The notes under the pieces: generated by a model
Database searches by the model: none
Seen by the model: only the letters and a program-made list of their open reading frames with translations
Told to the model about the DNA's origin: nothing
Shown here: positions 1,747 to 39,130 of the stretch, piece after piece
How positions within the stretch are numbered: the first letter of the stretch is position 1
Layout of the letters: every line of letters starts with the position of its first letter
Position numbers and translations under genes: made by a program
Origin: Zygnema cylindricum
Taxonomy: Eukaryota > Streptophyta > Zygnematophyceae > Zygnematales > Zygnemataceae
Assembly: GCA_037447655.1 (NCBI GenBank)
Contig: JBBHKE010001258.1
Span: 450,327-514,326 of the forward strand
DNA: 64,000 nucleotides
Reading direction: 5' to 3'

Positions 1747-2704
1747 TAAGGGCACTTTCTCATGTAACCAAAACTTAGTTTTGTAACTTTGCTTTTTAGC
1801 GAAGATTCTCCGTACTACTTTCAGTGCATTTTTAAGTAAAGAAATGAAATCGTTAGTTTAGATTGTGACGGATGTAGACGTGGGTGTAATTTGTGACGGT
1901 TGTAGACGACCACCAAACTCGCGACAATTAATGACATTTACAAAATAGTGACGGTTGTAGACGTCTAGCTACTTGTGACATTGTAGATGTTTAGGGTTTG
2001 TGACATTTTGACGTCACACTCAATTATGACAGCGTCGACGTCACAAATTCTAACACGTTCCGCCATGGTTTCCTGATATTTTTTTCAGTCCTTTTCACTC
2101 TACTTGCCATCAAAATACGCCCAAATATAGTAAAAAGAAATCGTTTTTAGGGATCTTTTATTTGACACCATTATTGACGTTTTTCATTGCAAGAATTGTG
2201 ATGTAGACGCGGTGGTGGGAGAGGGAGAGAGAGAGAGAGGGGCCCTTTGATGGACTTTGTTTTTTGCAAAATGGCGTCCGTTAGTCGAGACCCCTCCACG
2301 GCCCCTGTACGGAAAAAAGCGAACGGAAAAAAGTCACACACAGGTTGGAATCGTGCAGTGGGTTTTTATTTTGGTACTCCGCGCACAAAAGTTGTCAAAA
2401 ACTTCCGACACGTGCGACAACATTTGCCTATTCGCTCACATCATGGAACTTTATTTAAAATCACCTCGGGCGAGGTGATTTTATATAAAGTTTGAAGATG
2501 AGATGGAAGGACGCGAAAGTGGGTCAAAGCGCTATACGACAAACTGCATCACGCTAGACGACAAAGTGCAGTACATATAAAGTTTCAAGGTAACGCAACT
2601 TGTACGGTGGTAATTTCAATTTTTTGGTACAGCTGCAGATTTTTTCGTTGAGGGGCTACATTATGGAAATAAATGTAACTTTAGTACATGGGAAAGTGCC
2701 CTAA
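1747..2704 (+). mobile_element. ~958 bp transposon-like element, copy 1
   Basis: The left edge reads TAAGGGCACTTTCTCATGTA. The right edge is its imperfect inverse, TACATGGGAAAGTGCCCTAA, giving terminal inverted repeats of about 20 bp. The interior matches, in reverse orientation, the element at 13410-14363: GATTCTCCGTACTACTTT, repeated GTGACGGTTGTAGACG units, a shared GTGACGTC-type stretch, GCCATGGTTT, a GA-rich run, and a shared hairpin (AAAATCACC...GGTGATTTT). No transposase is visible, so it is probably non-autonomous. ATTC occurs on both sides (1743-1746 and 2705-2708), a possible target duplication, unproven. Confidence 0.65.
2457..2482. repeat. Near-perfect palindrome inside element copy 1
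   Basis: AAAATCACCTCG is followed by GG and then by its exact reverse complement. With one mismatch the arms extend to about 21 bp (ACTTTAT... to ...ATAAAGT). A related palindrome with the same AAAATCACC arms sits near 13648-13672 in the inverted copy, so the hairpin is a conserved internal part of the family. Confidence 0.8.
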
Positions 2705-5006: not shown

Positions 5007-12394
<7,388 letters not shown>

Positions 12395-12409
12395 GGAAAT
12401 TTAGGAGAG

Positions 12410-12525
12410 AGAAAGAGAGAGAGAGAGGGAGAGGGAGAGGGGAGGGAGAGGGAGAGGGAGAGGGAGAGGGAGAGGGAGAGGGAGAGGGAGAGGGAGAGGA
12501 AGAGAGGGAGAGAGAGAGAGAGAGA
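12410..12525. repeat. (GGGAGA)n purine tract just upstream of an ATG
   Basis: Almost pure GGGAGA/GAGAGG repeats lie on the plus strand, starting ~16 bases upstream of the ATG at 12394. In the minus-strand transcript this is a CT-rich leader or core promoter, like the pyrimidine patches common in plant promoters. Any promoter role is inferred. Confidence 0.7.
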
Positions 12526-12785
12526 TGAAACTACCAAAGGGAAGAAAGAGGGGAAGAGAGGAGGCCAGCAAACGGAAGGGGAGAGGAGGAGCGTCAGCAG
12601 AAGTAGAGAGACTGCGGAGTGAGGAGGAGTGGAGAGAGAATGGCTATCGATTATGGCTCAGCCAGCTCTTATTGCCATAACTGGCAACCGAGTTCTGGCG
12701 GGAAAAAGGGTGCCGCACTTTTTCACATTTTTGAATTTAATTTTTAACACTGAAATTTCAAATTTGAGCGGAAATTTGAAATTCA

Positions 12786-13003
12786 ATCGTGTATCGCTAT
12801 TAGTGTTTTTTTTTGTCGGCGCTTTTAAACATATTTTTCCGTGCACACTTTTCCGACTGCTCATCTGACGGTTGGGAATGAAAAGTAAGATTCTACACAT
12901 TCCGATTTACCACCTCCAATCAGAAATCGCACGTGTGCACGGAAAACGATGCTTTATGTGGCGAAAAAAATAATCACACTAATACTGTAGCGATACAGTG
13001 CGT
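12786..13003. mobile_element. ~220 bp MITE, copy 1 of the 'TATCGCTATTAG' family
   Basis: The left end has GTGTATCGCTATTAGTGTT and a T-run. The right end has the inverse, A-run CACACTAAT...AGCGATACAGTG. The interior has TTTTTCCGTGCACACTT on the left and GTGTGCACGGAAAA on the right, a second inverted pair. The same layout recurs at 48564-48779, 52045-52268 and 54347-54566. It carries no open frame and is a non-autonomous DNA element by structure. Confidence 0.7.
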
Positions 13004-13170
13004 ACTGTTGGTTTGAGAGAAACGCCTCCGAAAAAGTGAAAAGTTGGCGGGGAAATTCAAAATTTCATATTTGACGCCCGTGAAATTTCAGTTTCCACTT
13101 TTGCACTTTTGCAAAATCGCCCCAGCCGCAATTTTAAATTTTTACGCGCGCAAAATTTGTCGTAAAAATT

Positions 13171-13228
13171 AAGAACAGGAATACCGTACATCTTGTGACA
13201 AGATGGATGTACGGTATTCCTGTTCTTT
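13171..13228. repeat. Hairpin 1 (21-bp perfect arms plus bulge)
   Basis: AAGAACAGGAATACCGTACA... pairs with ...TGTACGGTATTCCTGTTCTT. The 21 outer pairs are perfect, followed by a 3-nt bulge and five more pairs around a tiny loop. It is followed after 3 nt by hairpin 2. It could be a young foldback element or a small-RNA precursor; no transcript evidence is available. Confidence 0.8.
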
Positions 13229-13231
13229 AAT

Positions 13232-13318
13232 TTCCAACAAATGTGACATGCTCACGGACGGTGTTCACACAATATTCTTGTGTGAACATCGTCCGTGGGC
13301 ATGTCACATTTGTTGGAA
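13232..13318. repeat. Hairpin 2 (41-bp arms, 5-nt loop)
   Basis: The left arm 13232-13272 begins TTCCAACAAATGTGACATG and the right arm 13278-13318 is its complement. The only differences are two positions that become G-U pairs in a plus-strand RNA. The loop is TATTC. Such a long, nearly perfect stem is what a Dicer substrate looks like, but a recent inverted duplication would look the same. Confidence 0.8.
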
Positions 13319-13409
13319 TCTTAAAATAAATTGTAGATTTGGATTTTACCCGCCCGACTTTGCGAAATATATGCTGACCGGCAGGAGTTGCCTTATATTT
13401 GATTATTTG

Positions 13410-14363
13410 TTAGGGTATGTCCCCATGTATTAAAGTATCTACTTTTCTCTGTCTTTTTGCCTTGAAATTCAGGGAACTTTGACAAAAACTTTAGCCGTAC
13501 GAAAAAATCATTTTTACCAAAGTAAAGTAAACGTCAATTCATACTTTGAATGTACAGCGTGTTTGTCGTCATGTGAACGCATTTTGGCGTTTTCCCCTTT
13601 TCGACCCCCGGGCAAGAGAATCCAGCCCAAAAAAAAACTTCATCCAAAATCACCTCGAGGGGGTGATTTTAGTTCAAGTACCGCTCAAACAGCGAATGAG
13701 AAATGACCCACGGACGCGCCACAAGAGTGTGAAAAATTTAGGACGAGGGAGAGTCCTCGCTATTTTTCTCCGTGCCGTCACGCGCATGTACGGAAAAAAA
13801 TCTGCAGGGGTCTCCAACCTTCACTTTCATTTATGGGGTCCTTTGCAAAATTTTGCGCCGTCGTCGCCTCTCCCCTCTCCCTCTCACACCATCGCTTTTA
13901 TCTCACACTGTTTAGAATGAGAGACGACAATATTGGTATAAAATGAAAGATATTTTAAAAATATTATTTTTGACAATTTTTAGGTTTTTTTTTAATGGCA
14001 AGTCGAGCGAGAAAAGTAGAAAAAACGAAATCGGAAAACCATGGCAGAAAGTTATTGAATCAGTGACGTTGACGTTGTCATAAGTGAGCGTGACGTCACA
14101 ATATCACCAAACCCTAAACATCTACGATTTCACAAAAATCTAGACGTCTACAACTGTCGCTGTTTTTGTTGCGTCACCAATCGTCGGAAGTTTCGTAGTC
14201 GCCTTCAATCGTCACAAGTTGTACCTACGTCTACAACCGTCACATTCCAAAGTTCCGATTTCATTTTCGCACATAGGGACGCTCTTCAAAGTAGTACGGA
14301 GAATCCTTCCTACAGTCCAAAATACTTTATCAAAGTACCGATTACATGGGGACGTACCTTTAA
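13410..14363 (-). mobile_element. ~954 bp transposon-like element, inverted copy 2
   Basis: The edges read TTAGGGTATGTCCCCATGTA and, inverted, TACATGGGGACGTACCTTTAA. The interior aligns in reverse to 1747-2704 over its whole length, including the AAAATCACC...GGTGATTTT hairpin (about 13648-13672), the GA/CT-rich run and the repeated TCTACAACYGTC units. Length is within a few bases of copy 1. Together the two copies bracket the CHD pseudogene in opposite orientation. No transposase is present. Confidence 0.65.
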
Positions 14364-14469
14364 TCATGGAAGGTACGTGAACGGCTGCAATTCCTTTTTT
14401 CGACGTGGCTGACTATATCTAAACTCTGAAGAACGAGACATCGTTATCGCTATTAGCTCAAATAGCAAA

Positions 14470-14503
14470 CGGCCGGCCGGCCAGATGGCCGGTTAGGCCG
14501 GTT
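14470..14503. repeat. GGCCGG-rich palindromic cluster
   Basis: GGCCGGCCGGCCAGATGGCCGG and a following TTAGGCCGG form overlapping self-complementary GC blocks in an AT-rich setting. No function is assigned. Confidence 0.6.
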
Positions 14504-15118
14504 TCACACGTTATCTAAAGTTCAAGTTGATAGGACGGAAACTCATTCTTGTCGTGGATCTCGTGGTAGACGAGACGTGCCCTGTTACAGAAACAAAGTA
14601 AAAAGGAAAAAAAGCAATCGTGCATTTCATAACCACAAACCGGTGACGCTTTCACATTAATGGATTTTTGTTGATTGCACAACCGGATGATTAGAGATGA
14701 GCGGCTTAAATGACAAGTTAGAAAAGGCAGGCTCTGCATCGACATATTAGTCAAATTAGGCTCTCCGAACTACATATTTAACTAAATTTAGAGAGCTACA
14801 ATCCTCCAACACTTCACGGTTTCATCGACCACATTGTTCGAAAACTCAAATGCGTCAATGTTAACTACTTGAGTTCTTTACTATACATAATCATGTATTA
14901 CTACAAGTGACACGGTTTCACCAACCACGATGTTTGAAAACTCAAATGCATATGAAGGTCTCTTACATGAGGCTTAACAACTGAAGAGATAAAAGTGAAA
15001 TCCTCGTGGACGAGAGATCCTTGTATCCTCAACTATCCTTGGACGACAATTTCTCGACCTATCTCCATCTTGCGGATATTCACAAAATATTTGTTCGATG
15101 TCGATGTTTGACCACAAT

Positions 15119-15965
15119 AATAAATAAGATGCAAGGAGATGAATTAATTTGGCTAGACATTTGATATAATCCTTATTTCATGACCAAAACGTGCTAAATT
15201 TTGTCATCTGGACCAAACATGGAGTCATATAAAGACATTAATTTGGCTCCTTCTTCACATCATATTCCTTTTACAAGAGTATAAGATTTGTTTTTATTGC
15301 TTTGTCATTTTTTCCGAAAATACATCTGTTAAACCATCTTATGTACAAGCATGATGAAAATGTAGAATTGTGGAGGACGATTAAAAGAGAAAGGAAAAAA
15401 AGAAAACACGTGACAACTGATTCTCGAGAACATTCAAGAACATTTATTACTTTGTGATGCTGATCGGACAAAATACACCGCATATCGCAATTAGTGTGAT
15501 GTTTGACACTAATAGCGTTACATGGTGTAGTTTCTCAAGCAAACCAAAGAATCCGCAGATCAATGTTTCCATGTGAGTCCACAAAAAGGTATACGTATGG
15601 CACAGTTAGTACAACTTTTACGGAAAAATGTTACAAAAAGTATACGTGTGGTACAGTTTGTACAATTTTACAGAAAAATGTTTGTAAGTGGTGAAACAAA
15701 CATTAACACTAATAGTGATTTACGATCTAGTTTCTCAAGCAAACCAAAGTCTAGTCTTCATAGACTAATATTTCCAAGTGATTTCACAAAAAGTATACTT
15801 ACAATACAGTTCGTACAGTTTTGCAGATCAGTATATCATAGTAAACTATGAGTACAGTTTATACGCCAATTAGTCTAATTGTCTAATACACTTCACACAA
15901 ATCGTACAATGATGAGTACAGTTCGTACATCTAGCATACATTCAATCAGTCCGTATAATACCGAA
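15119..15965 (+). repeat. ~0.85 kb dispersed direct repeat, copy A
   Basis: It matches 20135-20850 in the same orientation. Shared landmarks include AATAAGATGCAAGGAG, ATCTGGACCAAAC, TGGAGTCATAT, ATTGCTTT-TCATTTTTTCC, GTGACAACTGATTC, TTTGTGATGCTGATCGGACA, GCAAACCAAAG-type text, TGAGTACAGTTCGTACATCTA and TCCGTATAATACCGAACA. Both copies contain MITE-like ends (ACACTAATAGCG). The pair flanks the universal stress protein gene. No coding capacity is seen. Confidence 0.75.
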
Positions 15966-16151
15966 CAATTTACTACTGTACGCTGGTACGGATATGAGAG
16001 TCGTGGCTGAATCAATCTAAAATTGACGGCGTAAAAGTTTTTTGAGATCACGATTTTGAGATGTTTGGGTTTTGCGAAGATTTCGGAAGAGTTTCGGAGA
16101 TGTTTTAAGCACTGGCTCTTTCGGCCTTTTATTTTTTTCTCCCCCTCTCCC

Positions 16152-19100
16152 TCATCCCTCTCTCCTTTTCTTCTCCTTGTCTCTTTCTTCTCTCATCTCA
16201 CTCTCTGACCGCACCAACCGTCCATTACCGACTGGAACGGAGCTATGGTTGACCAGCCAATGACTGACGCTTCCCAGAAGCATTCTGCACAACATTTCCA
16301 TGCGGAAAAATCAGTTAAAATTTGTTATTCTTGAACAATAGTCAAAGCAAAAAACCAGTTCTCACTCTCTCGCCGTTTTTCTTATTTTTGTAAATCGGTT
16401 CCATGAGGAAAATACTGTTGAATATCATTTTGTTTTTGGACAGGGGTTACATGTGCTCTTATCATGTACTTCTTTTCTTTTCTCTACGTTTCCATGTAAA
16501 AAACTATGCAATGCAATTTAGTTTAAGCATGGTACAAAACAGTTCAGTGAAGTACAGAACACTACAGTACAGTATAATACAAACTGTTCAGTAAGGTATG
16601 GCATGATAAAGTACAGTACTGTACAGTACAGTACAGACAGTACAGTAAAGTAGAAACTGTTCCAAGTTTAAAAACTGATAGATCATCATATTACGATTTT
16701 CATTTCCTAAGAAAATCATGAAAATTCACAAGACCTCAAACCTAGATTCTCATAGATACAGTTAGAACGAAAAGCATTTTGTCTCCTTCTAAAAATCACA
16801 AATGATAATAAGACCATTTCCTGGGTAACATTTTAAAAGAAAAGATGTTTAACTTAGAATTGTGTCCATTTTTTTCAATAAAATCTTTATCTTTCATGAA
16901 CCAAACCGACCTCTTCATATTCCCAAGTCCCCGACTCCCGACGATAATCATGGCCACGTTCTCCGCCTCAGAAGCTTCCAAAATCTGCGTCCGGGCATCT
17001 CCTTTCATCACCATACCGGAAAAATTCACCTGCCACGTGGCACTTTCGAAATGTGTCAGCTTGCCAAGTGGCACCTTCGAATCTCAGTTACCACATGAAA
17101 CGCTAAAATGTCAGCTTATTGTCACCTGGCACCTTCAGATCTTAGCTAGCCAGCTGGAGGTCTCAGATTGCCACGTGGCACTTTGAGATGTCACTTTGCC
17201 ACGTGGCACCTTCAGATGTTAACTTGCCATGCGGAACCGTTAAATGTCAGCTGGCAAATAGAGATCTCAACTTGTTGCATGGCACTTAGAGATGTGAGCT
17301 TCATACGTGGCAGTTTGAAATGCCAGCTTGCCACCTGGGAATTGTAAAAGCTTGCGATGTAGCACTTTGAGATGTGAGTTTGACACGTGTCACCTTCAGG
17401 TATTAGCTTACCACGTGGCACCTTCAGATGTTTACTTGTCATGCGTCACTGTCAAATGTCAGCTAGCCACGTGGAAATTTGAGATCTCAACTTGTTGCAA
17501 GTCAACTTTCCACGTGGCAATTATAAACGCGAGTTTGCCACATGTCACTTTGAGATGTGAGCTTGCCACGTGTCATCCAATCAGATCAATAAGCTCTAAA
17601 TATTTCCAACAGCCTCCATCAAAATTCAAATCTCTTCTTTAACCTTTTCTCCAACGAGACAAATCAAAATCAAAACATAAGATAAACTCTTTATAATAAA
17701 CCTTTAGTATGGATGAAAACCAAAAATTTTTCAGCAAAATCTTCAACATCCTGTAACTTCCCCTCCGTTTGAAAAATAATCACACCGTCAAACAAGCAAA
17801 AAAGAAAAAAAGTAAAAGGAAAAAAAACAACCAATTTTTTCTCTGAAAAGCATAAGAGACAATTAGAAAATGAACAGCTCAAAAGAACTTTTTCAAAATA
17901 ACCTTAAGAAGCTCTAGAAAAAACCTAAAAAATCCTAAAATCTCCCAAAAAATCGTATATGACAAAAGAGAAACCTATTCAAAGCAGTATTTACCCTTTT
18001 TTCCCGCGCCTCGGCCTCCAATTCTGCCAGTAGCTTCTCACTTTTCCGGCCCTGCTCGGCCTCCCACTGCACCAGAGCCTCTGACGTCAGCATCCCTGTC
18101 AGCCCTGCAAAGCAAATGCCATGCTGATGTCAGCATCCCTGCTTAAAACGCTGATCCCTGAAAGTCAATGCCATGCTGAATGTCAGCAACAGTGCTTATA
18201 ACTGTCGTCCCTGCAAAGTCAATACCACGATGACGTCAGCAATCCTGTTATTACGCTTACGTCAGCATGCATGGCAGCCATGCAAAGAAGTTCGTGGTGG
18301 AATGACATCAGCATGCTTGTCAAGATTGATAATCGATAACATGCTGACGTCAGCAACCCTGTTTTCTTTCCGATGGTAGGGCTGACATCATCATTGTGAA
18401 CCATCTGACGCTGATTCAGTACTGTGGTGACGTCATCGTATATGTCACCAAGCCAACACGGGGACCGTGCTGACATCAGCATGCCGGTCAGTGCAGGCTT
18501 GGCGTCAGCAATGCCTGTTACTTCTCCGTAATTAGCGTCATAATGACGTCAGCATGGTTATCATCCCAAGAGTCCAGCTATGCCAAAATAACAATCTCAT
18601 TGCTCCCTCTCCATCTCCCTCCCTCCCTCCTTCCCTCCCCCTTCCCCTTTATTTCTCCGCTTCTCCCACTCTTATCCCTTCCCTGTTCCCCTTCCCCCCT
18701 TCCTCCCTTTTCCCCTTCAACCCTCCCCCAACCCCTTCCTAATTCCTTTCCCGTCCCTTCCCTTCCCTTCCCCCTTTTGTTCCCCTGCTCTCTCTTCCCC
18801 CTCTCCCTTCCCCCCTCCGCCCACACCCACCCCGCCCACCATAGTCCTGTCCTCTCTCCACGTGGAGCGCCACCAGTGTGTCACCCGGGTGCACTACAGA
18901 CAAAGCCGTACGGAAAGCCTGCAATCCGTACAAAACGTACCGTTGAAATGAGTAGTGCATTTTGGCAGGACGGTCCAAAAAAAAGTACGATTGAAAAGGA
19001 CAATAACATAGTCCTTAAAAAAATGCACGGCTGAAATGTACGTTACGTTCGTATGAGAAGCCAACCGAATATTCGTTTTTGGACAAAGAAAGGCTGGAAG

Positions 19101-19200
19101 AACGTTTTTGATTCACGGATGGGGCCAGATTTTTTACCTTTTTGGCTCCTTCTGACTCGTCTACCGCCACAAGAATCTTCCTTCCCTGTGTTGTCGCCAT
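16152..19200 (-). CDS. Universal stress protein (USP) family, five exons, 164 aa
   Basis: Exons 19138-19200, 18840-18918, 17995-18095, 16911-17029 and 16152-16284 join in frame with GT-AG introns, from ATG (MATTQGRKILVAVDESEGAKK) to TGA. Known USP A domains bind ATP. Seen here: strand 1 KILVAVDESEGAKKA, then VVHPGDTLVALHVE, the helix LLAELEAEAREKR, MVMKGDARTQILEASE, and the nucleotide-binding signature G-2X-G-9X-G-S split over the last two exons (VGSRGLGNMKR + MLLGSVS). Length suits a single-domain USP. The end is odd: after NHSSVPV the usual hydrophobic last strand is replaced by GNGRLVRSESEM and a Lys/Arg/Glu-rich tail. No transit peptide is evident, so it is probably cytosolic. Introns 2 and 3 contain TGACGTCA and CACGTG repeat arrays. 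The gene looks intact. Confidence 0.88.
16540..16660. repeat. GTACAGTA-rich simple repeat
   Basis: Many overlapping ACAGTAC/GTACAGT units lie in intron 4 of the USP gene. The same short word recurs at the edges of MITEs near 20.8 and 21.6-22.1 kb. Confidence 0.7.
17028..17580. repeat. G-box (CACGTG) minisatellite in USP intron 3
   Basis: About 18 diverged copies of a ~28-30 bp unit, consensus TTGCCACGTGGCACCTTCAG then ATGTYAGC. Exact CACGTG occurs at 17034, 17172, 17200, 17384, 17412, 17468, 17511 and 17567. The array runs up to, and supplies, the 3' splice site of exon 4 (CCACGTGGCAG before 17029). CACGTG is the known core bound by plant bZIP and bHLH factors. That the array binds such factors is inferred. 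Confidence 0.85.
18081..18560. repeat. TGACGTCA minisatellite in USP intron 2
   Basis: About 12 diverged copies of a ~40 bp unit centred on TGACGTCAGCA, often followed by TCCTG or TGC. Exact TGACGTCA occurs at 18082, 18231, 18345, 18428 and 18544; others are TGACATCA or TGATGTCA. The array covers the start of exon 3 and most of intron 2. TGACGTCA is the palindromic C-box/CRE core of bZIP factors. Regulatory activity is inferred. Confidence 0.8.
18600..18830. repeat. CT-rich low-complexity tract
   Basis: Runs of CCCTCCCT/TTCCCC lie on the plus strand within USP intron 2, just downstream (in the transcript) of exon 2. Long open frames on both strands here are by-products of composition. Confidence 0.75.
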
Positions 19201-20134
19201 GGATTTTCTAACTTTTTTATTTTTGCCGGGACAGGGAAAGAGGAAAGCCGGAAATTAGAAGGGGGAAAGTCCGAATTTTGAATGGAAATTCAACAAAGGG
19301 AGAGGGAAATATCCATTTTATTTTCCGTCTAACTTGGAAAATTATTGTCGGTGGAAAGAGGTAAGCTTTGCAAAGTCAGCTGCCACGTGCCGCTACTTTA
19401 CGTCGCATGGGAAAAGTTGCCCTCGTTTCCAGAGCTTTTTAGATCTTCCAAAACTTCTTTAAATTTGCTGACGTGTCCGGCAGATGTTGAAAGCTCAAAA
19501 TGTTCACCAATCCCATGACAGCCTGGGGACCGCTGCCACAAAAGTATCTACTCGGACGGTCAGATATTGCGCCATAGATTCTCGAGTCGATGCACTTTTT
19601 TTTCATGCAGTCAACAATGGTAAAGAGTCAAAGGTACGTACGTTGCTCTAAAATAAAGTACGTTAGCGTACGAAATCTAAAACACGAAGAGTACGTACTG
19701 CTGAGAAGTACGACCTCAGCAGTAAGAACTCCTGGTTCCTTTTTAGTTTTTACTGTTTTAGGATGCTCTTTAACCACAAACAAGGTAATGCTCTTTAACA
19801 ACGACAGGTGAGAAAAGGGCATACAATATAATGCGGTATTACTGGCAGAGTGACACCTAAAATCCTTTCACGATGCAAATATAATAGACGTTTGCTCCTT
19901 AATCTAATACAGCAAGCAGTTTTTTCTTGCATCTTATGTAGCTTTTGTCGTTTTCTTGGCATTTTGAGAGAATATCATGTTAAGCCATTAACAAACTTTA
20001 ATGATATTAAAAATTGTCTAATGGTTGTCACAGTTAGAGCTATAACAACATAGCCTTAAAGAGTGATATAATCTTTCCAAAATTTTGAATTGGAAAAAGG
20101 TACGAGAATGCGCTTCAAAATCTGAAAAAGATGA
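19201..20134. other. Upstream region of the USP gene, no gene seen
   Basis: AT-rich. Positions 19380-19395 hold one more CCACGTG close to the USP start. Positions 19630-19710 have repeated GTACGTA/GTACG words. No exon is supported on either strand. Confidence 0.5.
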
Positions 20135-20850
20135 CAGAGAGGATGAATAAGATGCAAGGAGGTTAATTGACTTGGCTGCACATTTGCTATAATTCCTATT
20201 AATGATAAAAATGTGCTAAACTTTGTTATCTGGACCAAACCTGGAGTCATATTAAGACATCAATCTGGCTCATTCTTAACCTCACATTCCTGCACTAGAG
20301 TAGAAGATTTTCTTTTTATTGCTTTTTCATTTTTTCCAAAACCAGCGATGGTTAAACCACCTGCGTACTAGCATAATTGAAATGTAGAATTGCTGACGAC
20401 CATTGAAAACAGGGAAAGAAAAAAAAGAAAACATGTGACAACTGATTCCCAAACACATTCACGGAGATATATTATTTTGTGATGCTGATCGGACAAAGTA
20501 CACCGCATATAACTGTTAGTGTTGATGTTTAATAACGATACAAAAGTATAAGTACGGTACAGTTAATACAATTTGACGAAAAAAAATGCATCAAGAGGCA
20601 AAAAAACTTAAACACGAATAGCGATAACTAGGTGTAGATTCAAGCGAACCAAAGACTTCACAGTAATATATCCAGCAGGTTCACAAAAAGACTATGCATA
20701 GTACAGTTTGTACAATTTTGCAGGACAGTATATCATGTAGCACCCTATGAGCATAGGCTGTACGCCTAGTACAGTACACTTGAGGTACCGTACAATGCTG
20801 AGTACAGTTCGTACATCTAACATACTTTGAACAAGTCCGTATAATACCGA
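20135..20850 (+). repeat. ~0.75 kb dispersed direct repeat, copy B
   Basis: Same family and orientation as 15119-15965 (see the shared landmarks there), with an internal indel near 20520-20640 where MITE-type ends (TACACCGCATAT and ACACGAATAGCGATA) occur. It ends against the MITE cluster at 20861. Confidence 0.75.
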
Positions 20851-20860
20851 ACAGTTAAGT

Positions 20861-21600
20861 ACACCGCCAATCGCTATTAGCGTGTAGGTTTCATTACACC
20901 GCCAATCGCTATTAGAGTATATAACGCCAATTCGGTGCCCTTTTTTCAAAAAAAAAAACCTGAAATACAATTAATAACGCTATTTAAGTACGTGGACCAT
21001 AATCTGCCACGTCTCAGGTACTAAATTAGAATCAATAACGCTAATTGTTTTTTGACGCTATTTAATCCTTGACTCTAATAGCGATTGGCGGTGTAGCGTA
21101 TACAAATAATTACCGTGGTGTACGCTATTTAAGAATTTGAAAATTTTGGAAAAAATCATACATTCTAATTGTTTGATTATGGTAATTTGGATCTTTGAAA
21201 AAACAAATGTCGGTCGCAAACATGCTTACACTAATATAAGTTTTCGTACAAAATCTGACAAATCGTACACAAATCGTACATTCACACGTCTAAACGCGGC
21301 TGTCGGACGAATATGTGCGAGCGGGATTTTTTACGACCTGGTTTTTTTCCTTTTTAGAACGCACATTCTCATGCGTCCGCGATTACTAAAACTAATTTAT
21401 TGTAATTTTTAACTTAAAAAGGTACATTTATGTACGGTCTGACACTGACCGTACACCACTCTATTTAAGAAACAACGTACTGAATATAACCCTAAATAGA
21501 ATAAAGAAAAAAATAGAATAAACTACGCTATTTGAGAATAAAACAAAAAAAAAGCGGGACGGGATTAGCGTACACAACGCTAATAGCGATTGGCGGTGTA
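20861..21600. mobile_element. ~740 bp MITE (outer element)
   Basis: The left end ACACCGCCAATCGCTATTAG + CGT (20861-20883) is matched exactly in inverse by ACG + CTAATAGCGATTGGCGGTGT near 21577-21599. A second smaller element with the same end is nested inside it. TA flanks both ends, which suggests a TA target. No transposase frame is present. Confidence 0.75.
20895..21095. mobile_element. 201 bp MITE nested in the outer element
   Basis: Perfect 24-bp terminal inverted repeats: TACACCGCCAATCGCTATTA then GAGT on the left, and the exact complement at 21072-21095. They differ from the outer pair only after TATTAG (AGT against CGT), so each left end pairs with its own right end. This supports a real nested insertion rather than a duplicated edge. 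Confidence 0.8.
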
Positions 21601-21609
21601 CTGTACTAT

Positions 21610-22132
21610 ACAGTACAGTACACCGCGCATCGTAATTAGAGTAATGAAAAAATTAGAGTATAAAAACTGAAAAAAACAATTAGAGTAATTTACGCTAATT
21701 TATGTGATAGAGCCTTTTCAACGATGAAGTTTACTCTAATTTATTTAAGTACTCTAATTTGGCACACTAATATCATCTACTGTAAATAGGGTATTCGTAC
21801 AGAATTTGGCAAAACGTACAGTTTATCGTCACTATGACGTTTGCACTACGCGGTTTGTTATAACGCAGATACATGATAACGGCCTGTATTTCATCATTAT
21901 TTGTACTTTTTTACTTAATAAAGTACAATTTTGCACGGTCTGACACCGTCCGTACTCCACACTATTTAAATCGAACCTATAATAGAATGAAAAACGCTAA
22001 TTAAACTTTACCTTAAATAGAATAATGAAAAAATTAGAATCATTTACTCTATTTCATGTGAAAGAGTCGAAATTTCGAGCGACCGAATTAGAGTAATTTA
22101 CTCTAATTACGATGCGCGGTGTACTGTACTGT
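21610..22132. mobile_element. 523 bp MITE with 35-bp perfect inverted ends
   Basis: 21610-21644 (ACAGTACAGTACACCGCGCA then TCGTAATTAGAGTAA) and 22098-22132 are exact inverse complements. Internal sequence has several TTAGAGTAA / TTACTCTAA words. It abuts the outer MITE and ends 149 bp before the ATG of the Dicer-like gene, so it forms much of that gene's upstream region. Confidence 0.82.
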
Positions 22133-22280
22133 ACTGTAGTATGTACTGTAGGACGTCCGGGCTGAAAAGTTTGAAACCTAAACAAAGTTTCGGCCATTTG
22201 AAATATAAGTGCTCCTGTAGTTTGGCAGATTGCATGGGCGAGTCAGCTTCTCGACCTTTCTTGCATCATCTGCAGTAGCC

Positions 22281-25200
22281 ATGGCCTCTCTTCCCAAAAA
22301 GTTAGGTGTCTCACAAAATACGTTCTACAAGAGACTCTGGCCAGTGGAGTTTACAGGCAGCAGGATTGCGGAATCAGGAACAGAAGAAGAGTCAAAAAGA
22401 GCCCCACAAGACGAACGTTTTTCTGCAGATTCGAAAATCGACGCCGTTAGTGTTAAACTCCATGCCTACGCCATTCGGTTTCAAGCCCTTGACTGCTCTT
22501 CAGATGCGTTGCAGGCTGACGCAGAAGATTTTGTCCTTCTGGTGGAGCAGTCTCTTGACAACGAAATCAGTTCTTGTCCAATAGACCTGTTTCTTCCTCA
22601 CAGCTGTAGAGTACGAGCTTGCATTCATCCTCTCACGCCTTTATTACTCAGTTTGATGCAACTCGAAAAAGCGAAAAAGTTTCATAACTCCATGCTCAGA
22701 GCCATTCACTCTTTCCGCGAAACTGAAACTGAACTCTCGACCAATGAACCTGCCTTGCAACTTGCACCTGAAGGTTTTTGCAACACGGGTTTAGAGAAAC
22801 CCGGAGTATGGTCCTCTCATAAAGCTTATCTTCTCCTCAGCAACAAAGAACTGAATAAGATTATTATTGCTGGGGAAGGGAAACCTTCCGTTTGCAATCA
22901 TGTCTTTGCACAAGGCGACGCTAAAAGAATTTTTCCTGAAGGTAATCAGGAGAGAGCGGGCTCCAACCCTTCAATATCCATTTTGAATGAGAGACCACCT
23001 GCCAGTCAATCATCGATACAGGAGTTAAAAGATACACATTTTACACTTGAATCTGATTCCACCTCAAAGGTGAAGACCGCTGACACAGACAACCAGCTCA
23101 TTTTAAACGGCGGAAAAATCCCTGTTTCGGAATTAATGGACACTTTTGTCACTGCTGTTCACAACCGAGTTACTTATGTGGTGCTGTCTGTGTCTCCGGA
23201 TTTGACAAGCGAAAGCCGCTTTCCTGTCTCAAAATATCACAGTTTTGCAGAGTATTTTAAAATAAAACACGGTTTGGAACTCAAGTTTGTTAAACAGCCC
23301 CTCCTTGTGTTGAGGCGTCCCATGCAGGTATGTAACGACCGATGGACATATTTTGACTTTTCTTTTTCTACATTTTATGGCATTGCGGTTCAGACATAAA
23401 CTTCACAATATGTATGAAACGGTGAATACGAGTCGAATGCGTTTTGTGTTTTCTATTTCTCCATTTTATGGCATTGTGGTTCAGACATAGCCTTCAGAGT
23501 GTGCACGAAACGTATGAAATTTGCCGTGCATAAGATGAATAAAAATATTACTCGTTCTCAAAGTACAGAATACATTTGCATGTAATATTTATAGTTTTTG
23601 AAGATGTATTTACGCAGGCTGCCAACTTTCTCCATCAAAAACCTGTAGAATCTGCTTCTGGGCGTAGCTTGTCGATAGCGTTGATGCCTCCTGAGCTCTG
23701 TATGCTTTGCAATAGTTTGGATGGGAGGACAATCAGAGGAGCTGTTCGCCTTCCTTCTATTATGCACCGGATACACTGCCTACTTCTGGCGTCGGAGCTG
23801 AGACAACGGTTTAGGATTTCTGGAGTTCCTCTGATGAGCGTTTTGGAGGTCAGTCTGTTGCCGTTGGTCCATGAATAACTCTTTTTTGACCGCAATGGTA
23901 GATGGTACTCTAAAACTCCTTGTTTTTTTGGGAACTCCTTGTTGCAGACATTGCACAATTTTGCAACTATTCTCACTCGTACAATGCACCACTGCGGAAA
24001 GGGTTATTGCTATTGTCATTTGTACATTCGCCATTAAATATTGAAGCGTTTCTTTTCCTCACGATGGTTTTGTCCGTGGTTTGAGTCAGTGCTGTTACTA
24101 TTATTAACAGTCTTACTAATATTGATGTTAAAGTGATGGAAAAAAGAATGGTATTGAAACGACACACCATTGCAAAATTGATACCAAAGGCTTTTCCTAG
24201 GAGAATACTTTTCCGCGGAGAATACTTTTCTGCGGAGAATACTTTTCCGCAGAGAATAGAGAATACTTTTCCGCGGAGAATAGTGAATACTTTTCCGCGG
24301 AGAATAGAGAATACTTTTCCTCGGAGAATACTTTTACTAGGAGAATACTTTTCCTCGGAGAATACTTTTACTAGGAGAATACTTTTCCTCGGAGAATACT
24401 TTTCCTCGGAGAATACTTTTCCTCGGAGAATACTTTTTCCTCGGAGAATACTTTTCCTAGGAGGATACTAGGACGTTTTTTTGTCTTATTCACCTGTGAT
24501 ATTTATGTTAAGATGTTAGATGTGACGATGTTAGATGTGAAGATGTTAAGATGGTGTTTTTTGCAGGCCCTAACTGCCAGTGGTTGCGTGGAGGGATATT
24601 CCTACGAGCGTTATGAATTTCTGGGCGATGCTTACTTAAGATATGCTGTGGCACTCTCCCTCTTTTTGACACATTTGGAGGCAGACGAGATAGTTCTTTC
24701 GAACCTGTTAATGGTTTGGTGCAATCTCCTTTCCATTTTTTGGCGAGAGTGAGGGAGAGGGAGGGAGGAGAGGGAGTGGGAGAGGTAGAGGGATAGGGAG
24801 AGGGAGTGCGGGAGGGAGGCAGGGGGAGAGGGAGAGGGAGTGAGGGAGGGAGGCAGGGGGGGAGGGGGAGAGAGGGGGAGGGGGGGGGAGAGGAGGAGAG
24901 AGGGAGAGGGAGATTGCAATGCATTGAAGTGTAAGCTCTATCTGTCAAATCCGCCCTTCAACAAACAACTCCAGACGAGGAGGTTCAGGTGGACATTGTG
25001 ATTATTACTTTCTTCTTGTCTTATGCCTCATTTCTACTACTCTTTTGTTCACGTGATTGGGGCACTAGAAAAATGTGAATTGTAACCTGTAGCACAGAGA
25101 CTATCTGGACTATTGTGAAATCTTGGAATGATATGTCTTATGCAAATCTCATCCGATTACAACTAATTGGGTTTCATTTACTCCTTAGCTATATGCAATT

Positions 25201-28200
25201 AGCAAGTTACAAAAACATCAGCAACACATTATTTCTTCGAATATTGGAGACAAAATTGGTGTAAACCAGTATCTAAAAACTCAGATGGTAGCACATTCTT
25301 TCACACGGCACTTTGCACTTTCTTACGTCACTTTCGGTTTTGTCTATTTATTTATTTTTATATACAGGAACAAGTCAACAATAAAATGCTTAAAAAATTG
25401 GCGGTTGAAGCTGGTATACCTCAATATATTGTTTCAGAGGCATTTGATGTCACCTCATGGGAAGCTCCAGGGGAACTGGTTAATCTCGAAAATCAAGTAC
25501 CTGAGTTTTCAACAGGTCATAATGAGTCTGAAAATGAAAAGAATGGAAGGTTACTGAGTCGATTTTTTGTTCAAAAACAACAGTCGATTTCGGTTAAGCA
25601 AATTGCAGATGTGGTAGAAGCAATCGTAGGGTTGTTCGTTTCAGGACGAGGTGGTGAAACTGAAACTCTTCAATTCTTGGCGTCTATTGGCATGAAAGTT
25701 GTGGAGCTCGCCCTCTCCCATTCTGTAAATATTTTTCAAAACTCAAATTTGGGTTGTACCATAGATAATGTATCTCAGAATGAGAGCATAGTTGTGGTAG
25801 AATGTGGTACAGAAGTAAAACACTTGGAGATAGGTGAAGGAGTTGGAGACCAGTCATTATTGGTAGCAAACCCTGAAACCAATGGGGGAAATTTCACCGA
25901 ACAACATTCAAACGTTTCCAGTCACTCAGCGGTTCCAGTTGTTAACAACTTCACATTTCCAGATCGACCACAAAAAATTGTGGATTTATCATCTCACCTC
26001 TTGAATCTCAGTGAACCAGAAAATCAGACCTTTATTCTTGGAGTGAGAGAAATTGAAAGTGTATTTGCTTACAAATTTAAAAGACCGTGGTTGTTGAAGG
26101 GAGCTCTAATGCATCCTTCCTGTAATTATTCCAACGGAAAGTTTTCCTTTGAGAGATTACAATTTCTTGGCGGTGCAGTTCTCGACTATTTGGTATCACA
26201 CCAGTTATTTTTTCTCAACCCCAATGTGGGTCCTGGTACTATAACCATTTTGAGGCAGGTAAATCTTATTTCTTTCAATCCTAGTTCGGGCTCCTTTTCT
26301 CAAATAAAAAAGTAGTGCTTGATCCTTTCTTGATAAATATAACTTTTGGCATTTGTAATCAACTTCGATATCTAATCAACTTATGGCTTTTATTTTTCTG
26401 CACCATTTGAGGTATTTCTATTTGTATACAATTCAACAATATTACGTGAATATCGAGGAACATCAAAGGCTTTTATAACTCAGCTATTTTTTTTTTTGTA
26501 AATGAATCTGCCATTATAGTTGGTAACTTGGGCATCTCTGCAAGATAATCCGTAATCTGTACTATTTCTATTTTAGCTGAAGGGTCACGCATGGAGGCTT
26601 ACAACCACTGGAACGGTTTGTGTCAATCCCTACAACATACTCTTAAAGAGTCTGTGAAATGTACAATTTCATTTGGAACTTGAATATTGTCGGTCTTTGG
26701 CTTGACGTTCAAAAGCTTCTGATCGTTATCTTTTGCAATTTAAACACCTTTGAACATTTTGTGTCTTTTTTCTTTGCTTCGGAAATTGTGTGTCTCTTCT
26801 ACCAACAAAACTCTTGTGGAGTTCTTTCACTTTTTCTCTATCTGGACAGGCTGCTGTCAACAACGAACAATGTGCCTGTATAATTGTCCGTCACAATTTA
26901 CAGAAATACCTCCGTGTTGGGAGCCCCTCATTGGAGAAACGAATCTCTGACTTTGCAATGGCTGTACAAGAGGAGGGTTTAAAAGCAAATGAGGCAAAAG
27001 ACGAGGGAGGTGATAACGGTCTTCCCAAACACACCTTTGGAACTGTGGCAACAAGTGCTCCAAAGGCTCTATCAGAAATGGCGGCTTCTCTCGCAGGAGC
27101 TATATTTCTTGACTGTGGACTTAATACACAGCGGTTATGGCAGGTGAAGTTTTTTTTTTAATTTCTTTAGAATCCTCTTTAAGTGTTTCGGATGTAACAA
27201 AGATACTTCGGCTCACTATTACATCCTTGTACCCTGTTTCTTTCACACTCCATCACATACGAATATCTTGTTTCTTTCTCAGCCCATCAATGCAAATATT
27301 ATGTTTCTCATCCCATCCTATCCTGTTTCTTTCTCATCCCGTCACATACAAATATCCTGTTTCTCATTCCTGTCAAGTATGGATATCGTTTCATCTCATC
27401 CCATCGCATTCAAATATCCTGTTTCTTACAGGTTTTTGAACCCCTACTTTCACCGTTGCCAGAACCTCAAAGTACAGTACAACACCCTATGCAGCGGCTC
27501 CACATAAACTGCCAAAAGGAGGCACGCAGCTTGGAGGTCGGTTTTCTCAATTATTGTTTGTTTCTCAATCATTGTTTCGCCTGTATGACTGAAGTTATGA
27601 TGTTAGCACATAACAAACGACTCTGTGAAGTTCTATTTTAAGTTGCTGCTTTTGGCTTATCCTAAGCAATAATCGTTTGATATACTTGGTTAGTCTTATT
27701 AGCGTATATTTTTCTTACCCTGATACCTGTGTTGTCGTTGCAAAGATAAGTTAAGGCTATGCAATTATCGTTAAATCCATAAAAGTTATGCTGATAGTGT
27801 CCACTAGTGTCACATGGTCCTTCATCTGATGGAATGACCAATTTTGTTGGGTAGGACCCATCTATCTTTTTTTCTCAAATTTGATTCCCCAGTTTTTTGC
27901 TTCTTTGTTGCCAATAGCTCATTGAAGTTCATTATTCAGTTCATCAGTAGGAAAAGACTTTTGATCTCCAGACGTCCCCTTCTTTCAGTTCAAGTGAATT
28001 TTGTTTTCCGGACTAAAGCATGTCTTCAGTTTTGACTCAATTTTATCCTCTCATGGTCGGAAAAGAATACGACAAAGTCCGTTTCAACTTCCCAACTAAG
28101 GTATTCGACCAGTACGCCGTTAATCGCCATTAGCGTTAATGACAGTAGTTTGAATCCGGTTTTTTTTGCCCTCCACAAAATAGGTCACTCAATTTTTTTT

Positions 28201-29572
28201 TGTCCTTAACGCTTTTCTATAAATTGTTCAAAATTAGCCCCACCCATCTTTTGGAAACGCATTAGACTCAATAACGGTAAATTACAAACCTCGCGCTAAT
28301 CTTTAACTAATGGCAATGGTGGTGGAATCTTGCTCCATAATAATACAGGTTCCAAACAGGAGATGTGTACATTGTCGGGAATATATCGTGGAAATCTGGA
28401 TTAACGGTCAACTGTTTTCTCGAGCCCAAAGCTTCAGTGTTCAAACCTCTCGTCGTTTAGCTGCGACTTTTGCTCTAGGAAACATGTCCGTGGAAGGCAA
28501 TAAAAAAAATGAAGTGCTCGATATTCATTGTGGACCTTCAGGTTGTCAAAAATTGGGGGTCGGTGAAAATATTAGTATTACCGAGAAGAAGAAGAGTGAC
28601 CAGGCAATTGAAAATGTCCGCCGGATTGATGTCTCTTTAACATCCGAAGGGAGGGAAAGTTCCTCAAAAGGAGTTAAGGCAGTGGCAGAAGAATGCTTGT
28701 TTGAGAAAAAGAGAGGGAAGGAAGAAGCTTACGGCGACGGACGTGAGGGAAAGAGGAAATGGTGGAGAGAGTGTGTTTTGGCAAAAGGGGGGACCGGAAT
28801 ATGGGAACCTAACACGAAGGGGGTTATTGAAAATCTCCTTAAGCTGCTTGCGGGAACCTCAGACGAACTACAGGTACCTACCTATTTTTCTTGCAAAGAA
28901 AATTTGTAGTAAACGATGCGAGTAATCTGGGTATAGAAGATTTTGTAAATAGTATGAAATAAATCTGAAGTCAATCAGGCGATTATCATCTAAAATTCCA
29001 ATTTATTTATACAGATTCTCAATTTTAAAACACTTGCTGTCTTGTCCTCAAAATTTGGATAATTTTCTTTCTGGACAGAAAGTCAGACTTTGTTTCAATA
29101 GACCACTAGCGTTTCTCATAGTCACGCCTATGAAAAGGAAGTTGTTTTTGATGTTTACACGCTCGAGGACTTTGTGTCTGATAGTTACACACACTTAGGG
29201 AGTTTTTTCTAATAATTATGCACTCAAGAAGTAACTATATAATTATACATTGCTAATTCATTTACCAGCTGGGAAACTTGTATACAGCGAAAAGGTATGG
29301 GGCGTAAGATCCTTAATGAAATTTGCTCCACAAATGGTTGGATACAACCGGTGTACGAACTCGTGAAGGGAGAGGGACCTTTACACTTGCAACAGTTCAG
29401 TTTTCTCGGTCGCATAACTTTTGAAGGTAAGGAGATTTGTGCAACGGGGGATTTTTGTTCAAGTCATGCACAAGCGAAGGATTCAGTGGCTCTCAAAATA
29501 GTGAAGCAACTGTTACTTGAACATAATATACTTAATGAAAGGCATCTCGGATATGATTATATTGTACGGTAG
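22281..29572 (+). CDS. Dicer-like protein, helicase-less, with degenerate RNase IIIb; eight exons, 1174 aa
   Basis: Exons 22281-23327, 23618-23848, 24567-24713, 25368-26258, 26850-27143, 27432-27536, 28349-28873 and 29288-29572 join in frame; all seven introns are phase 0 and GT-AG. The ATG has context GCCATGG. Residues ~1-130 match the region before PAZ (LHAYAIRFQAL, LLVEQSLDN, LEKAKKFHNSMLRA). PAZ ends at EYFKIKHGLELKFVKQPLL (~325-345). RNase IIIa: YERYEFLGD (E443, D447) and IADVVEAIVG (D556, E559), intact. RNase IIIb: FERLQFLGGAVLDYL has Q740 and G744 where E and D belong, and LSEMAASLAGAIF has E848 and A851 for D and E. A dsRNA-binding domain spans exons 6-7 with a ~130-residue insertion; a second ends the protein (KILNEICSTNGWIQPVYEL). 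Dicers cut dsRNA with the paired IIIa/IIIb centres; here one is predicted inactive. No helicase exon lies upstream, where only MITEs are found. Confidence 0.9.
24197..24470. repeat. 17-bp minisatellite (AGAATACTTTTCCTCGG)n
   Basis: About 14 tandem copies of AGAATACTTTTCCKCGG, with variants ACTAGG and CCGCGG and three units extended by AGAATAG. It lies in intron 2 of the Dicer-like gene, between exons 2 and 3. The open frame across it results from the 17-bp period and is not a protein. Confidence 0.9.
24745..24915. repeat. GA-rich low-complexity tract
   Basis: GAGAGGGAGGG runs lie in intron 3 of the Dicer-like gene, starting about 30 bases after the donor of exon 3. Confidence 0.8.
28110..28320. 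repeat. Possible decayed MITE in Dicer intron 6
   Basis: GTACGCCGTTAATCGCCATTAGCGTTAAT resembles the left end of the ATCGCTATTAG family, and GCGCTAATCTTTAACTAATGGC near 28295-28315 is a poor inverse. The ends are too diverged to be sure. Confidence 0.35.
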
Positions 29573-31735: not shown

Positions 31736-34700
31736 TTATTGCTCCGGAGTAAATCCTTTGACTTCCACTCCTCTTTCAGCAGAAACGACATGGAAATCGT
31801 GTCGATGTCCTTTCACAAAGGCGTACATTGTGCCCGGGCAGACGTAGTCCACCACGCGGTCGTGACGGAAAGGCTCTCCCGGAACCTGCCGACAAAAAAG
31901 TGGAAGTACCGACACTTCATCAGAGGACAGTTCCTTCCAAACCTGCAATGGACGTACAATAACCTCTAAACAGTAGAACTGCTTCCAATAGGTAATTAGA
32001 TATGACGAAAATACTGGCAATCGAAGTAACCCCGGTGCTTCCGATCTACAGAAAACACTGCACATGCCGGGATTACTGAAAAACCACAATTGCAGAAGAT
32101 TTTGCTTTTAACGGCGGTGACGACAATTGCTAGGGTTACTTTCAGTAACCACAGTATTTTTATCGTATGTAATTACCCTATGATCATTGGTTAACCTTCA
32201 AAGACAGTTACGGCACAAATGATTACGAGAGATGAGAGATTGGCGTTGTGCTGTACCTGATGGCCCGAATGAATTTGAATGCCGGTGATCACCGCATAAT
32301 CCGCCGTTGCACAATCCACCGTCTTCGAAATTAAATGCTCGAGATCGTTAGTAATCACCTGCAAAAAAACGTGCAAACAAATAAATAAACAGACAAAACG
32401 GAAACACAATTTCTCCTCTCCCCAGCCATCAAGAACCCTCAGGGTTTCCGCAGCAAAAAGCAGTAAACAGTAAAATGTATAAGTAAAAAATAGTCATACC
32501 TTGAGAGCTGCTTTTGTCACGTCAACCAGACTGGGAGACTTCGACCCGCAGTCCGCTGTCTACAGGCCCACAAACAAATTGACAAGCCATAAGCACCACT
32601 TTACCAAACAAACGAATAAGCTAAAAGATTTCCATAAAAAAAAAAAAATGCGAAAAAGAGAAACAACCAGCAAGAAAAAGATGAAGTGGAAACAACATAA
32701 AACATACCTCAGACAAAACCTTTCTTTTCAAAGTCACGTATTCAAAATCATCTCCATCATCAGCCGTGTCGAGACCTGACTTGGCGTCTCCTTGAATGGC
32801 GATGAGGGCTCCACAGGCATGGGAGGGCTTCCCTCGGCCTCTTCTTAAAAGAGAACCGACCTCCCCACTCTCCCCCACCGACACATGAGGGAATGCAAAA
32901 AAGACATCTGCAAAACAACAAACAAACACCTCAGCTTACAGAATTTTGAAAACCATAATCCTGCGTCCCTGGAGAAACAGTTATTCCCTTGTAGATCATA
33001 TAAAAACCATAGGTCAAATGTGCAAAAACCATTGAAAACACTGTATACGGTTTTCCTGTAGTATACGCATACTATAATCCAGAAAACTACGTAATATGCA
33101 TACAATACAGCCAAATCAGATAATAGCGTTTCCAATTGTTTACGCCCATTTGAACAATTGATGAAAAAAGGAACTTTAGAAATTCAAAACACTAATAACC
33201 AAAAAGCTTACATCTTTCCCGAGGCTGTCCCTCCTCATGCTTGATCACCGGACTGTGGGACATGGCGGCTTTCAATCCCGTCTTTCCGCAGTTGACGAGG
33301 CCGCCCAATCCGGAGATGTTGAAGGATAAGCCGAAGTGCTTATCGATGAATGTGGCAATAGGGCGACATACCTGCAAAATTGTGCAGAAAAAAAAAATCA
33401 GATAGAATCACAGCACAGCATTGGAACTTTAGGGTAAGTACTACCGATCTTGTAATAAAAAAGACAACTTCAACTCAAAATATCTTGACCACTCACCCTT
33501 TTTTGTTCTTTGATCTTTCTTCAATCAATGGTATTGCACAGAAAAGGACTCTTTAGTGAGTACAAATTATGGCCACTATTGACTTAGTTTTAATGGCAAC
33601 CTTTGCCCCATTACATTACATGGAAAAAGAAAATAAAGGGGACACATTTTACGCGTTGAATGCAGCTAGAGGGAGAGGGCGAGGGGGAGAGGGAGAGGAG
33701 GGGAGAGAGAGAAGACAATTCCTTACCTCATCCCGGCAAGTATTTACAAGAGCAATGCAGTTATCCCTGCAATTCCAATGACCATCCAAAACATAAATAT
33801 GAGGTCTCATCCCAAAGCTTTCATCCCAAAGCCAGTCACGCGAACCATAGGTTTAATGTACGGAAACAATTGGGAACACTATACGGGATATAGTAGCGTA
33901 CTATGCGATATAGAGTACACTTATAATACGTGAAAGAACCTTAAAATAAGCATAATATACGGGGTTACAAAGTTTCAACAGATAAAATTTATGCTACAAA
34001 CCCGAGCAGCAAAATCAGACTCTAAGAGCTAAATTGGCAACAAGTTATTGTCAAATTTGACACTGCTGATTTGCGGCTAATTTTCTGAAGCAGATCAGTT
34101 CCATTCATCTCTATACACACATAGACGTCAACAATAACGAATTTAAAACCGTTTAAACATGCATAGGTTTCAAAAAAAACGTTACATGCACATATTTCAA
34201 AACTTTAAAAGACCCTACAAAGCTCAAAACAGATCTATGTTAAGAAAGCAGGGTGGATTAAAGGTTTTTCTCTTCAAATCAAATAGATTTCTCAAAATTT
34301 GTATTAATTTGCACTGATTCCCCTACAACATGAACATATTTCATCTTTTATGCAAAACGACAAAATACAGGTGTCACTCAACGACACCAAGAAATATACA
34401 AACTTCGCCTTCAAATCCCCCAACCGTAACCTAAAGTACAAAATGTCTCAAAATTATAAAAAATGATACAAAATAACTTTACTGCGAATGAACCAAACAC
34501 CACAAGAAAAAAAAAAAAAAAAATTGTTGAAATTGTTTCTGCAGAAAACCGCCATGCCAGCCAAGACAAGCTTTCCCGATCCAACACCTCTCTTCCACAC
34601 AAAATAGAGTCACATGTTATTAAGAAAAAATAAGACTTAATAAATATTATTTATACTTAATATTAATAATTACTTTGTGAAGCCGAGAGGGCGAAGATGG

Positions 34701-38400: not shown

Positions 38401-38635
38401 TGTTCAGAGCTTTAATAATATCCACCTCATATGTAAACTGACGGTTCACGGACCAGCGACGAACAAACTCGCAACTGTAAAGCCATGCGATCAGACAAAC
38501 AACGTTACAATGAATTCCATGATTAGCATTCAGCTACGAGGCAATGTCTGCTTTGTCGGAGATAATGATGATTCACTTTCGCCGCTGGAATTCCATCCAG
38601 CGACGAGACAGCCTTTGTTTTGTCGAAGATGATGC

Positions 38636-39130
38636 AGAAATTGTTTCAAAGCTGGATTTCCATCCAGCGATGAGACAAACTGTTTCAAAGCTGGATTTCC
38701 ATCCAACAACGAGACAAACTGTTTCAAAGCTGGATTTCCATCCAGCGACGAGACACTCTCTACATCGTCGAAGATGTTGCAGAAAATGTTTCAAAGCTGG
38801 ATTTCCATCCAGCAACGAGACAAACTGTTTCAAAGCTGGATTTCCATCCAGCGACGAGACAAACTGTTTCAAAGCTGGATTTCCATCCAGCGACGAGACA
38901 AACTGTTTCAAAGCTGGATTTCCATCCAGCGACGAGACACTCTCTGCATCGTTGAAGATGATACAGAAACTGTTTCAAAGTTGGATTTCCATCCAGCGAC
39001 GAGACAGTCTCTGCTTTGTCGAAGATGATGCAGAAGCAATTTCGATCCTGGGTTTCCATCCAGCGACGACAGAGTCTCTACATTGTCGAAGGTCATGCTG
39101 AAGCAGTTTTAAAGCTGGATCTCCATCTAG
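38636..39130. repeat. 39-bp tandem satellite (CAAAGCTGGATTTCCATCCA...)
   Basis: About ten to twelve units of 39 bp: AACTGTTTCAAAGCTGGATT then TCCATCCAGCGACGAGACA. Some units are replaced by a longer variant containing TTGTCGAAGATGATGCAGAA. Each unit carries a small inverted pair, CTGGAT..ATCCAG. Several central units are identical, pointing to recent homogenisation. The frames through it on both strands are open only because 39 is a multiple of 3. Confidence 0.9.

Follow-up and report, generated by a model that had tools for sequence, protein, structure and literature searches.

A Dicer-like gene of Zygnema cylindricum with an intact RNase IIIa site and altered metal-binding positions in RNase IIIb

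A Dicer-like gene is present in a 64,000-nucleotide stretch of Zygnema cylindricum DNA (contig JBBHKE010001258.1, positions 450,327 to 514,326; hereafter the window), and its predicted product retains the catalytic acids of RNase IIIa whereas all four metal-binding positions of RNase IIIb are altered. We give a probability of about one half to the reading that this is a minimal Dicer-like protein that works as a Dicer nicking a single strand. The intact IIIa acids, the concentration of IIIb losses on the four catalytic positions, and eight exons free of premature stops all favor nicking.

In RNase IIIa, the motifs YEFLGD and ADVVEA start at residues 442 and 555, and E443, D447, D556 and E559 are all kept; an alignment with 120 homologues bears out the earlier proposal that this site is intact. 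The corresponding IIIb motifs are LQFLGG, from residue 739, and SEMAAS, from residue 847, which place Q740, G744, E848 and A851 at the metal-binding positions. Their codons (Table 1) are at least five base substitutions away from acid codons. The initial annotation of this DNA held that IIIb had lost all four catalytic acids. All four positions are indeed altered, but because D848E is still acidic the claim is slightly overstated: strictly, three acids are lost and one is swapped. Judged by motif only, the protein has one of the two competent catalytic sites expected of a Dicer (E, D, D, E in IIIa versus Q, G, E, A in IIIb), and we have filed it as a Dicer-like homologue rather than a canonical Dicer.

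Two ways of restoring the IIIb acids were rejected. A six-frame pattern scan of the window for LEFLGD-like sequences, which covered motif 1 and not motif 2, found only the IIIa copy, which excludes restoration of IIIb motif 1 by an alternative exon within the window. By reasoning, neither C-to-U nor A-to-I RNA editing can yield a glutamate or aspartate codon from CAA, GGT or GCT. It is highly improbable that the IIIb site is still alive in an unusual form, with E848 or other residues binding metal: D848E does retain an acid, but the remaining three ligands are glutamine, glycine and alanine. A851 presumably corresponds to human E1813. The human IIIb mutant used in rescue experiments has a single change, E1813G, which also argues against a live site (PMC12700799).

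The homologues that were aligned are 120 listed of 122 matches. Most are DCL2 and DCL4 of flowering plants and a few come from animals, with algae not sampled; they share 24-37% identity with the query over 18-53% of the searched part. Counting sequences with a residue at the position, the IIIb acids are present in 119/120 (E), 120/120 (D), 117/118 (D) and 118/118 (E) homologues. All four are kept in 116 of the 120, the others having one change (P0033 and P0119) or gaps (P0105 and P0106), and all four IIIa acids are kept in 109, with 7 of the other 11 gapped. In a predicted Dicer-like protein of Stylosanthes scabra (P0108, 921 amino acids), three of the four IIIa positions are changed and IIIb is intact. 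This pattern could be a gene-model or alignment fault, and it illustrates that an individual gene model in the homologue set can have a poor RNase III site. All eight acids are carried by 18/18 comparators across DCL1-4 and animal Dicers, which were drawn from the 120 homologues (10), from eight later matches (six), and from the solved-structure search (two fragments).

The claim that no plant Dicer with this pattern is known holds for the alignment, in which 0/120 homologues share it; the set is without sequences of DCL-New, DCL-Algae or the moss MINIMAL DICER-LIKE protein (mDCL), and similar one-domain variation is listed outside plants (PMC4791657). The first protein search scored 7,994 candidates sharing most words with the query, and two further searches gave 5 and 3 matches. 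No protein named mDCL or DCL-New occurs among the matches, but the search considers only candidates that have exact words in common with the query, so algal orthologues or moss mDCL may be missed and we claim no absence. In a maximum-likelihood tree of 19 sequences and 461 columns, the query falls, with a long branch of 1.31, between the DCLs of plants and the Dicers of animals. It is not placed inside DCL1, at backbone supports of 29-36 and with DCL1 thinly sampled, by one fragment and the Acorus protein grouping with that fragment (support 100), and we assign it to no DCL class.

There is no visible decay in the body of RNase IIIb. At alignment columns with 95% or more conservation across the homologues, the query matches 27/32 in IIIa and 29/37 in IIIb, and the IIIb losses comprise 4/4 catalytic columns versus 4/33 other near-invariant columns (p = 0.001 in a Fisher test that was chosen after the motifs had been seen). 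Identity at consensus columns is 0.63 for IIIa, the second lowest of the set, and 0.69 for IIIb without the catalytic sites. Pairwise identities between the query and six comparators are 0.31-0.39 for IIIa and 0.32-0.43 for IIIb, compared with 0.32-0.54 and 0.37-0.51 among the comparators themselves, so the divergence of both RNase III domains is a little above the usual level and is no greater in IIIb than in IIIa. RNase III sequence is thus kept in IIIb while its metal ligands are changed. This combination resembles a pseudoenzyme domain; it does not amount to proof of selection.

The gene has eight exons on the plus strand, at 22281-29572, which are spliced into a frame for 1,174 amino acids followed by TAG. 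Re-splicing reproduced the residue numbering of the initial annotation, as well as its seven introns, all with GT-AG ends and all in phase 0. Apart from the final stop, the coding frame is stop-free in 8/8 exons, and each of the other two frames has at least one stop in every exon; the chance of a frame staying open for 1,174 codons is p ~ 4e-32 at the local base composition. A start of exon 8 at 29269 was rejected on the grounds that it breaks the frame, while 29288 keeps the frame and yields a second double-stranded RNA-binding domain (dsRBD). The gene could be longer, because a candidate splice acceptor (CTGCAG) precedes the start codon by a few bases; but this ATG stands in the context GCCATGG, and no upstream Dicer helicase was found in the searches described below. 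Two introns contain tandem arrays: a 17-base unit, CTTTTCCGCGGAGAATA, is repeated at 24191-24469 in intron 2, and a GAGGGA-type purine run occupies 24743-24913 in intron 3.

Overall, the Dicer-like gene looks intact, in keeping with the earlier view that it is not obviously dead. The gene might instead be a recent pseudogene, or a full Dicer's duplicate that has been truncated, with IIIb the first part to decay; this would fit with the failure to find a helicase or DUF283, with the nearby transposase domain, and with the repeat arrays in the introns. We nonetheless consider such an origin quite unlikely, given the 1,174 stop-free codons, the canonical splice ends, the intact IIIa motifs, and IIIb losses that cluster at catalytic positions instead of being spread.

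The proposal that the product is Dicer-like is well founded. Pfam matches PAZ (E 1.8e-13), Ribonuclease_3 in two stretches (2.2e-32) and dsRBD models, the best of these at residues 1085-1155. The closest protein of solved structure is Dicer homolog 1 (7eld, E 1.8e-94), and others are Endoribonuclease Dicer (best 5.4e-58), which we take to be the human protein, Dicer-like 3 (7vg2, 1.7e-57) and Dicer-like protein 4 (9kby, 1.2e-49). PAZ is followed by tandem RNase III domains, as in Dicers, according to both Pfam and the solved-structure search, and the complete order is platform-PAZ-IIIa-IIIb-dsRBD-dsRBD. The alignment to DCL1 opens at query residue 59 and DCL1 residue 984, which presumably lies in the platform region. 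Human residues F960, Y971, Y972 and Y976, which we assume to form the 3'-end pocket, align with F314, Y325, F326 and H330 of the query. F326 is also found in 23/120 homologues and H330 in 45/120, and a working 3'-end pocket in the algal PAZ domain is plausible.

No counterpart of the N-terminal DExD/H helicase of canonical plant DCL1-4 was found. Neither a helicase nor DUF283 is matched by Pfam in the 1,174-residue protein or in the three plus-strand frames of 14001-22280 and 4101-14003 (positions 1-4100 of this strand were outside the scan). As a positive control, the same frame-wise scan recovers the split RNase III, PAZ and dsRBD domains from the gene's own DNA. A tblastn search of the whole window with 10 Dicers, at E up to 1, gave no upstream helicase match; its three matches outside the exons, at 16976, 27265 and 56318 (E 0.70-0.95), were taken as chance. 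A hidden upstream helicase was rejected on the basis of these Pfam scans and tblastn. These results go beyond the initial annotation, and they place the layout beside that of the known minimal DCL, mDCL.

The original study of mDCL, in Physcomitrium patens, is reportedly that of Coruh et al. 2015. As described in later papers, mDCL resembles the algal protein in having PAZ and RNase III domains and no N-terminal helicase (PMC10721683, PMC5144951), and it also has no Dicer dimerisation domain (PMC10721683). The algal protein differs in its two dsRBDs, since mDCL is described as only PAZ and RNase III (PMC5144951). The available portions of these papers mention no loss of IIIb acids in mDCL, which is known here by description and not by sequence (PMC10721683, PMC5144951). 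The moss protein clusters with DCL1, at unclear resolution (PMC5144951). Accounts of the mDCL mutant disagree: in one, 23-nucleotide small interfering RNAs (siRNAs) require mDCL (PMC5144951), whereas in the other the 23-nucleotide class rises and the 24-nucleotide class falls (PMC10721683).

Plant DCL1 (7eld/7ele) has the same order from platform to second dsRBD, and 75/174 IIIb positions are identical. Unlike the algal protein, it has a helicase and DUF283 (PMC11905391), and in the alignment of comparators it keeps the IIIb acids. Chlamydomonas DCLs, which are described as having neither PAZ nor dsRBD, show the reverse layout (PMC11905391). Among other streptophyte types that have been described are a DCL-New clade, which includes Klebsormidium, Mesotaenium, and bryophytes to gymnosperms, and algal-type DCLs in Mesostigmatophyceae (PMC7994812).

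Among the open-licence papers that our literature searches brought up, as far as their text was available, none showed a Dicer of the green lineage whose IIIb is dead, and none is described in the available portions of PMC2877743, PMC5569507 and PMC11905391. The pattern itself has some precedent in diatom and Trichoplax Dicers. Both motifs of a single RNase III domain are listed as varying in Thalassiosira DCR and Trichoplax DCL2b (IIIb) and in Trichoplax DCL1b (IIIa), so that, as in the algal protein, one domain departs from ExxGD and DxxE (PMC4791657). These Dicers are from outside the green lineage, and the comparison is by listing, not by residues. Phaeodactylum DCR1 and Albugo DCL2 represent a different pattern, with variation in both domains (PMC4791657).

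Human Dicer offers a functional parallel. Its IIIa domain cuts the 3p arm and its IIIb domain the 5p arm; IIIb mutants cut 3p only, and nicked precursors have been detected for some microRNAs (PMC12700799). The human IIIb hotspot mutants resemble the algal protein in that IIIa is intact and IIIb is altered (inactive in the human enzyme), although they are tumour mutations in full-length Dicer and not a natural gene (PMC12700799). By the same logic, one measured IIIa cut would be expected of the algal protein, and nicking, as previously suggested, is the natural prediction from a IIIa-only site. Trypanosome KREPB6-8 with KREN1-3 also form RNase III pairs that have a single catalytically competent member and are thought to cut a single strand, but these are separate proteins of RNA editing complexes, in which zinc fingers take the place of the dsRBDs found in Rnt1p (PMC9508840).

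Assuming expression and a Dicer-like fold, PAZ would hold the 3' end of a double-stranded RNA or hairpin, while the dsRBDs and a pseudo-dimer of IIIa and IIIb would hold the duplex. The IIIa site alone would then cut, at a measured distance, the strand normally cut by Dicer IIIa (the 3p arm), and IIIb would be retained to complete the RNase III valley structurally. Possible uses include a small RNA from the 3p arm only, a nicked precursor that is finished by another nuclease, or regulation of a full Dicer. Two considerations count against this reading. Residual IIIb activity is conceivable because of the long branch and because the D-to-E swap leaves one acid, and the protein may have a use that involves no cutting.

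Alternatively, the protein could be a pseudo-Dicer whose main role is to bind and measure dsRNA, or to regulate or partner a full Dicer, the IIIa site being incidental. PAZ and two dsRBDs are kept while half of the catalysis is altered, non-catalytic RNase III partners exist (PMC9508840), and the helicase-less moss mDCL acts beside DCL3 on 23- and 24-nucleotide siRNAs (PMC10721683, PMC5144951). However, the protein retains all four IIIa acids despite being one of the most divergent in the set, suggesting that cutting by IIIa is under selection, and we judge a pure binder or regulator to be fairly unlikely. Somewhat less likely again is that both strands are cut through intermolecular pairing, either of IIIa domains from two molecules or of IIIa with a different RNase III protein. 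Dicers that have only one RNase III domain do act as dimers (PMC7827160), but the conserved IIIb body looks as if it were still an intramolecular partner.

A broader form of the nicking proposal is that a Dicer dedicated to nicking has become fixed in a lineage of green algae: helicase-free, anchored by PAZ, with IIIb permanently disarmed, and making measured single-strand cuts. One arm would be released and the other would stay joined to the precursor, which would provide a choice of strand before Argonaute. We offer this idea tentatively, as one that is rather doubtful on the sequence in hand.

Other features of the window are listed in Table 1. The chromo and SNF2, carbonic anhydrase, DDE_1, PORR and Trypsin_2 domains around the Dicer-like gene would suit a green alga, perhaps a streptophyte. 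A helicase-C-like open frame was seen by eye at 5827-6159, within the CHD-like gene, and the Trypsin_2 domain appears by eye to be of a type that we take to be Deg/HtrA-like. Peptide repeats (FKAGFPSSDET...) at 38523-39101 are open in several frames, as seen by eye, and are perhaps a DNA satellite and not a gene. A tRNA scan of the window found none.

Table 1. Exons of the Dicer-like gene and other features, in positions of the window
Feature	Position	Strand	Content	Basis or remark
Exon 1	22281..23327	+	N-terminus (helicase/DUF283 not found), platform region, most of PAZ (residues 284-382)	
Exon 2	23618..23848	+	PAZ end and connector (RLPSIM...)	Pfam, structure-relative alignment
Exon 3	24567..24713	+	RNase IIIa motif 1 YEFLGD: E443 24615-24617, D447 24627-24629	Acids kept
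Exon 4 (IIIa part)	25368..26258	+	RNase IIIa motif 2 ADVVEA: D556 25608-25610, E559 25617-25619; linker	
Exon 4 (IIIb part)	25368..26258	+	RNase IIIb motif 1 LQFLGG: Q740 (CAA) 26160-26162, G744 (GGT) 26172-26174	E, D replaced
Exon 5	26850..27143	+	Remaining RNase IIIb; motif 2 SEMAAS: E848 (GAA) 27075-27077, A851 (GCT) 27084-27086	D to E, E to A
Exon 6	27432..27536	+	RNase IIIb end and dsRBD1 start	
Exon 7	28349..28873	+	Remaining dsRBD1 (weak) and charged linker	
Exon 8	29288..29572	+	dsRBD2 (residues 1085-1155), stop	DND1_DSRM 9.4e-10, dsrm 2.6e-07
CHD-like gene	5827-9355	-	Chromodomain and SNF2 pieces	One SNF2 piece just below Pfam cut-off
LCIB/C-type carbonic anhydrase (PF18599)	32242-33371	-	Domain split into three pieces that lie in three frames	CO2-concentrating gene type of algae, next to the Dicer-like gene
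DDE_1 transposase domain	39971-40285	-	Adjoining open frames to ~41.5 kb may be same element	Adjoining frames by eye
PORR (plant organelle RNA recognition) gene	52386-54132	+	One frame, with weaker pieces in other two	E 2.3e-55 in one frame
Trypsin_2 domain	61426-61644	-		Pfam

A Dicer in which nature has altered one site lends itself directly to testing the purpose of the second cut. If the gene proves to be conserved and expressed, it would show that evolution can preserve a small-RNA enzyme solely to nick or to measure, and it would offer a naturally occurring parallel to the IIIb mutants of human tumours and to the diatom and Trichoplax Dicers listed as one-sided (PMC4791657).

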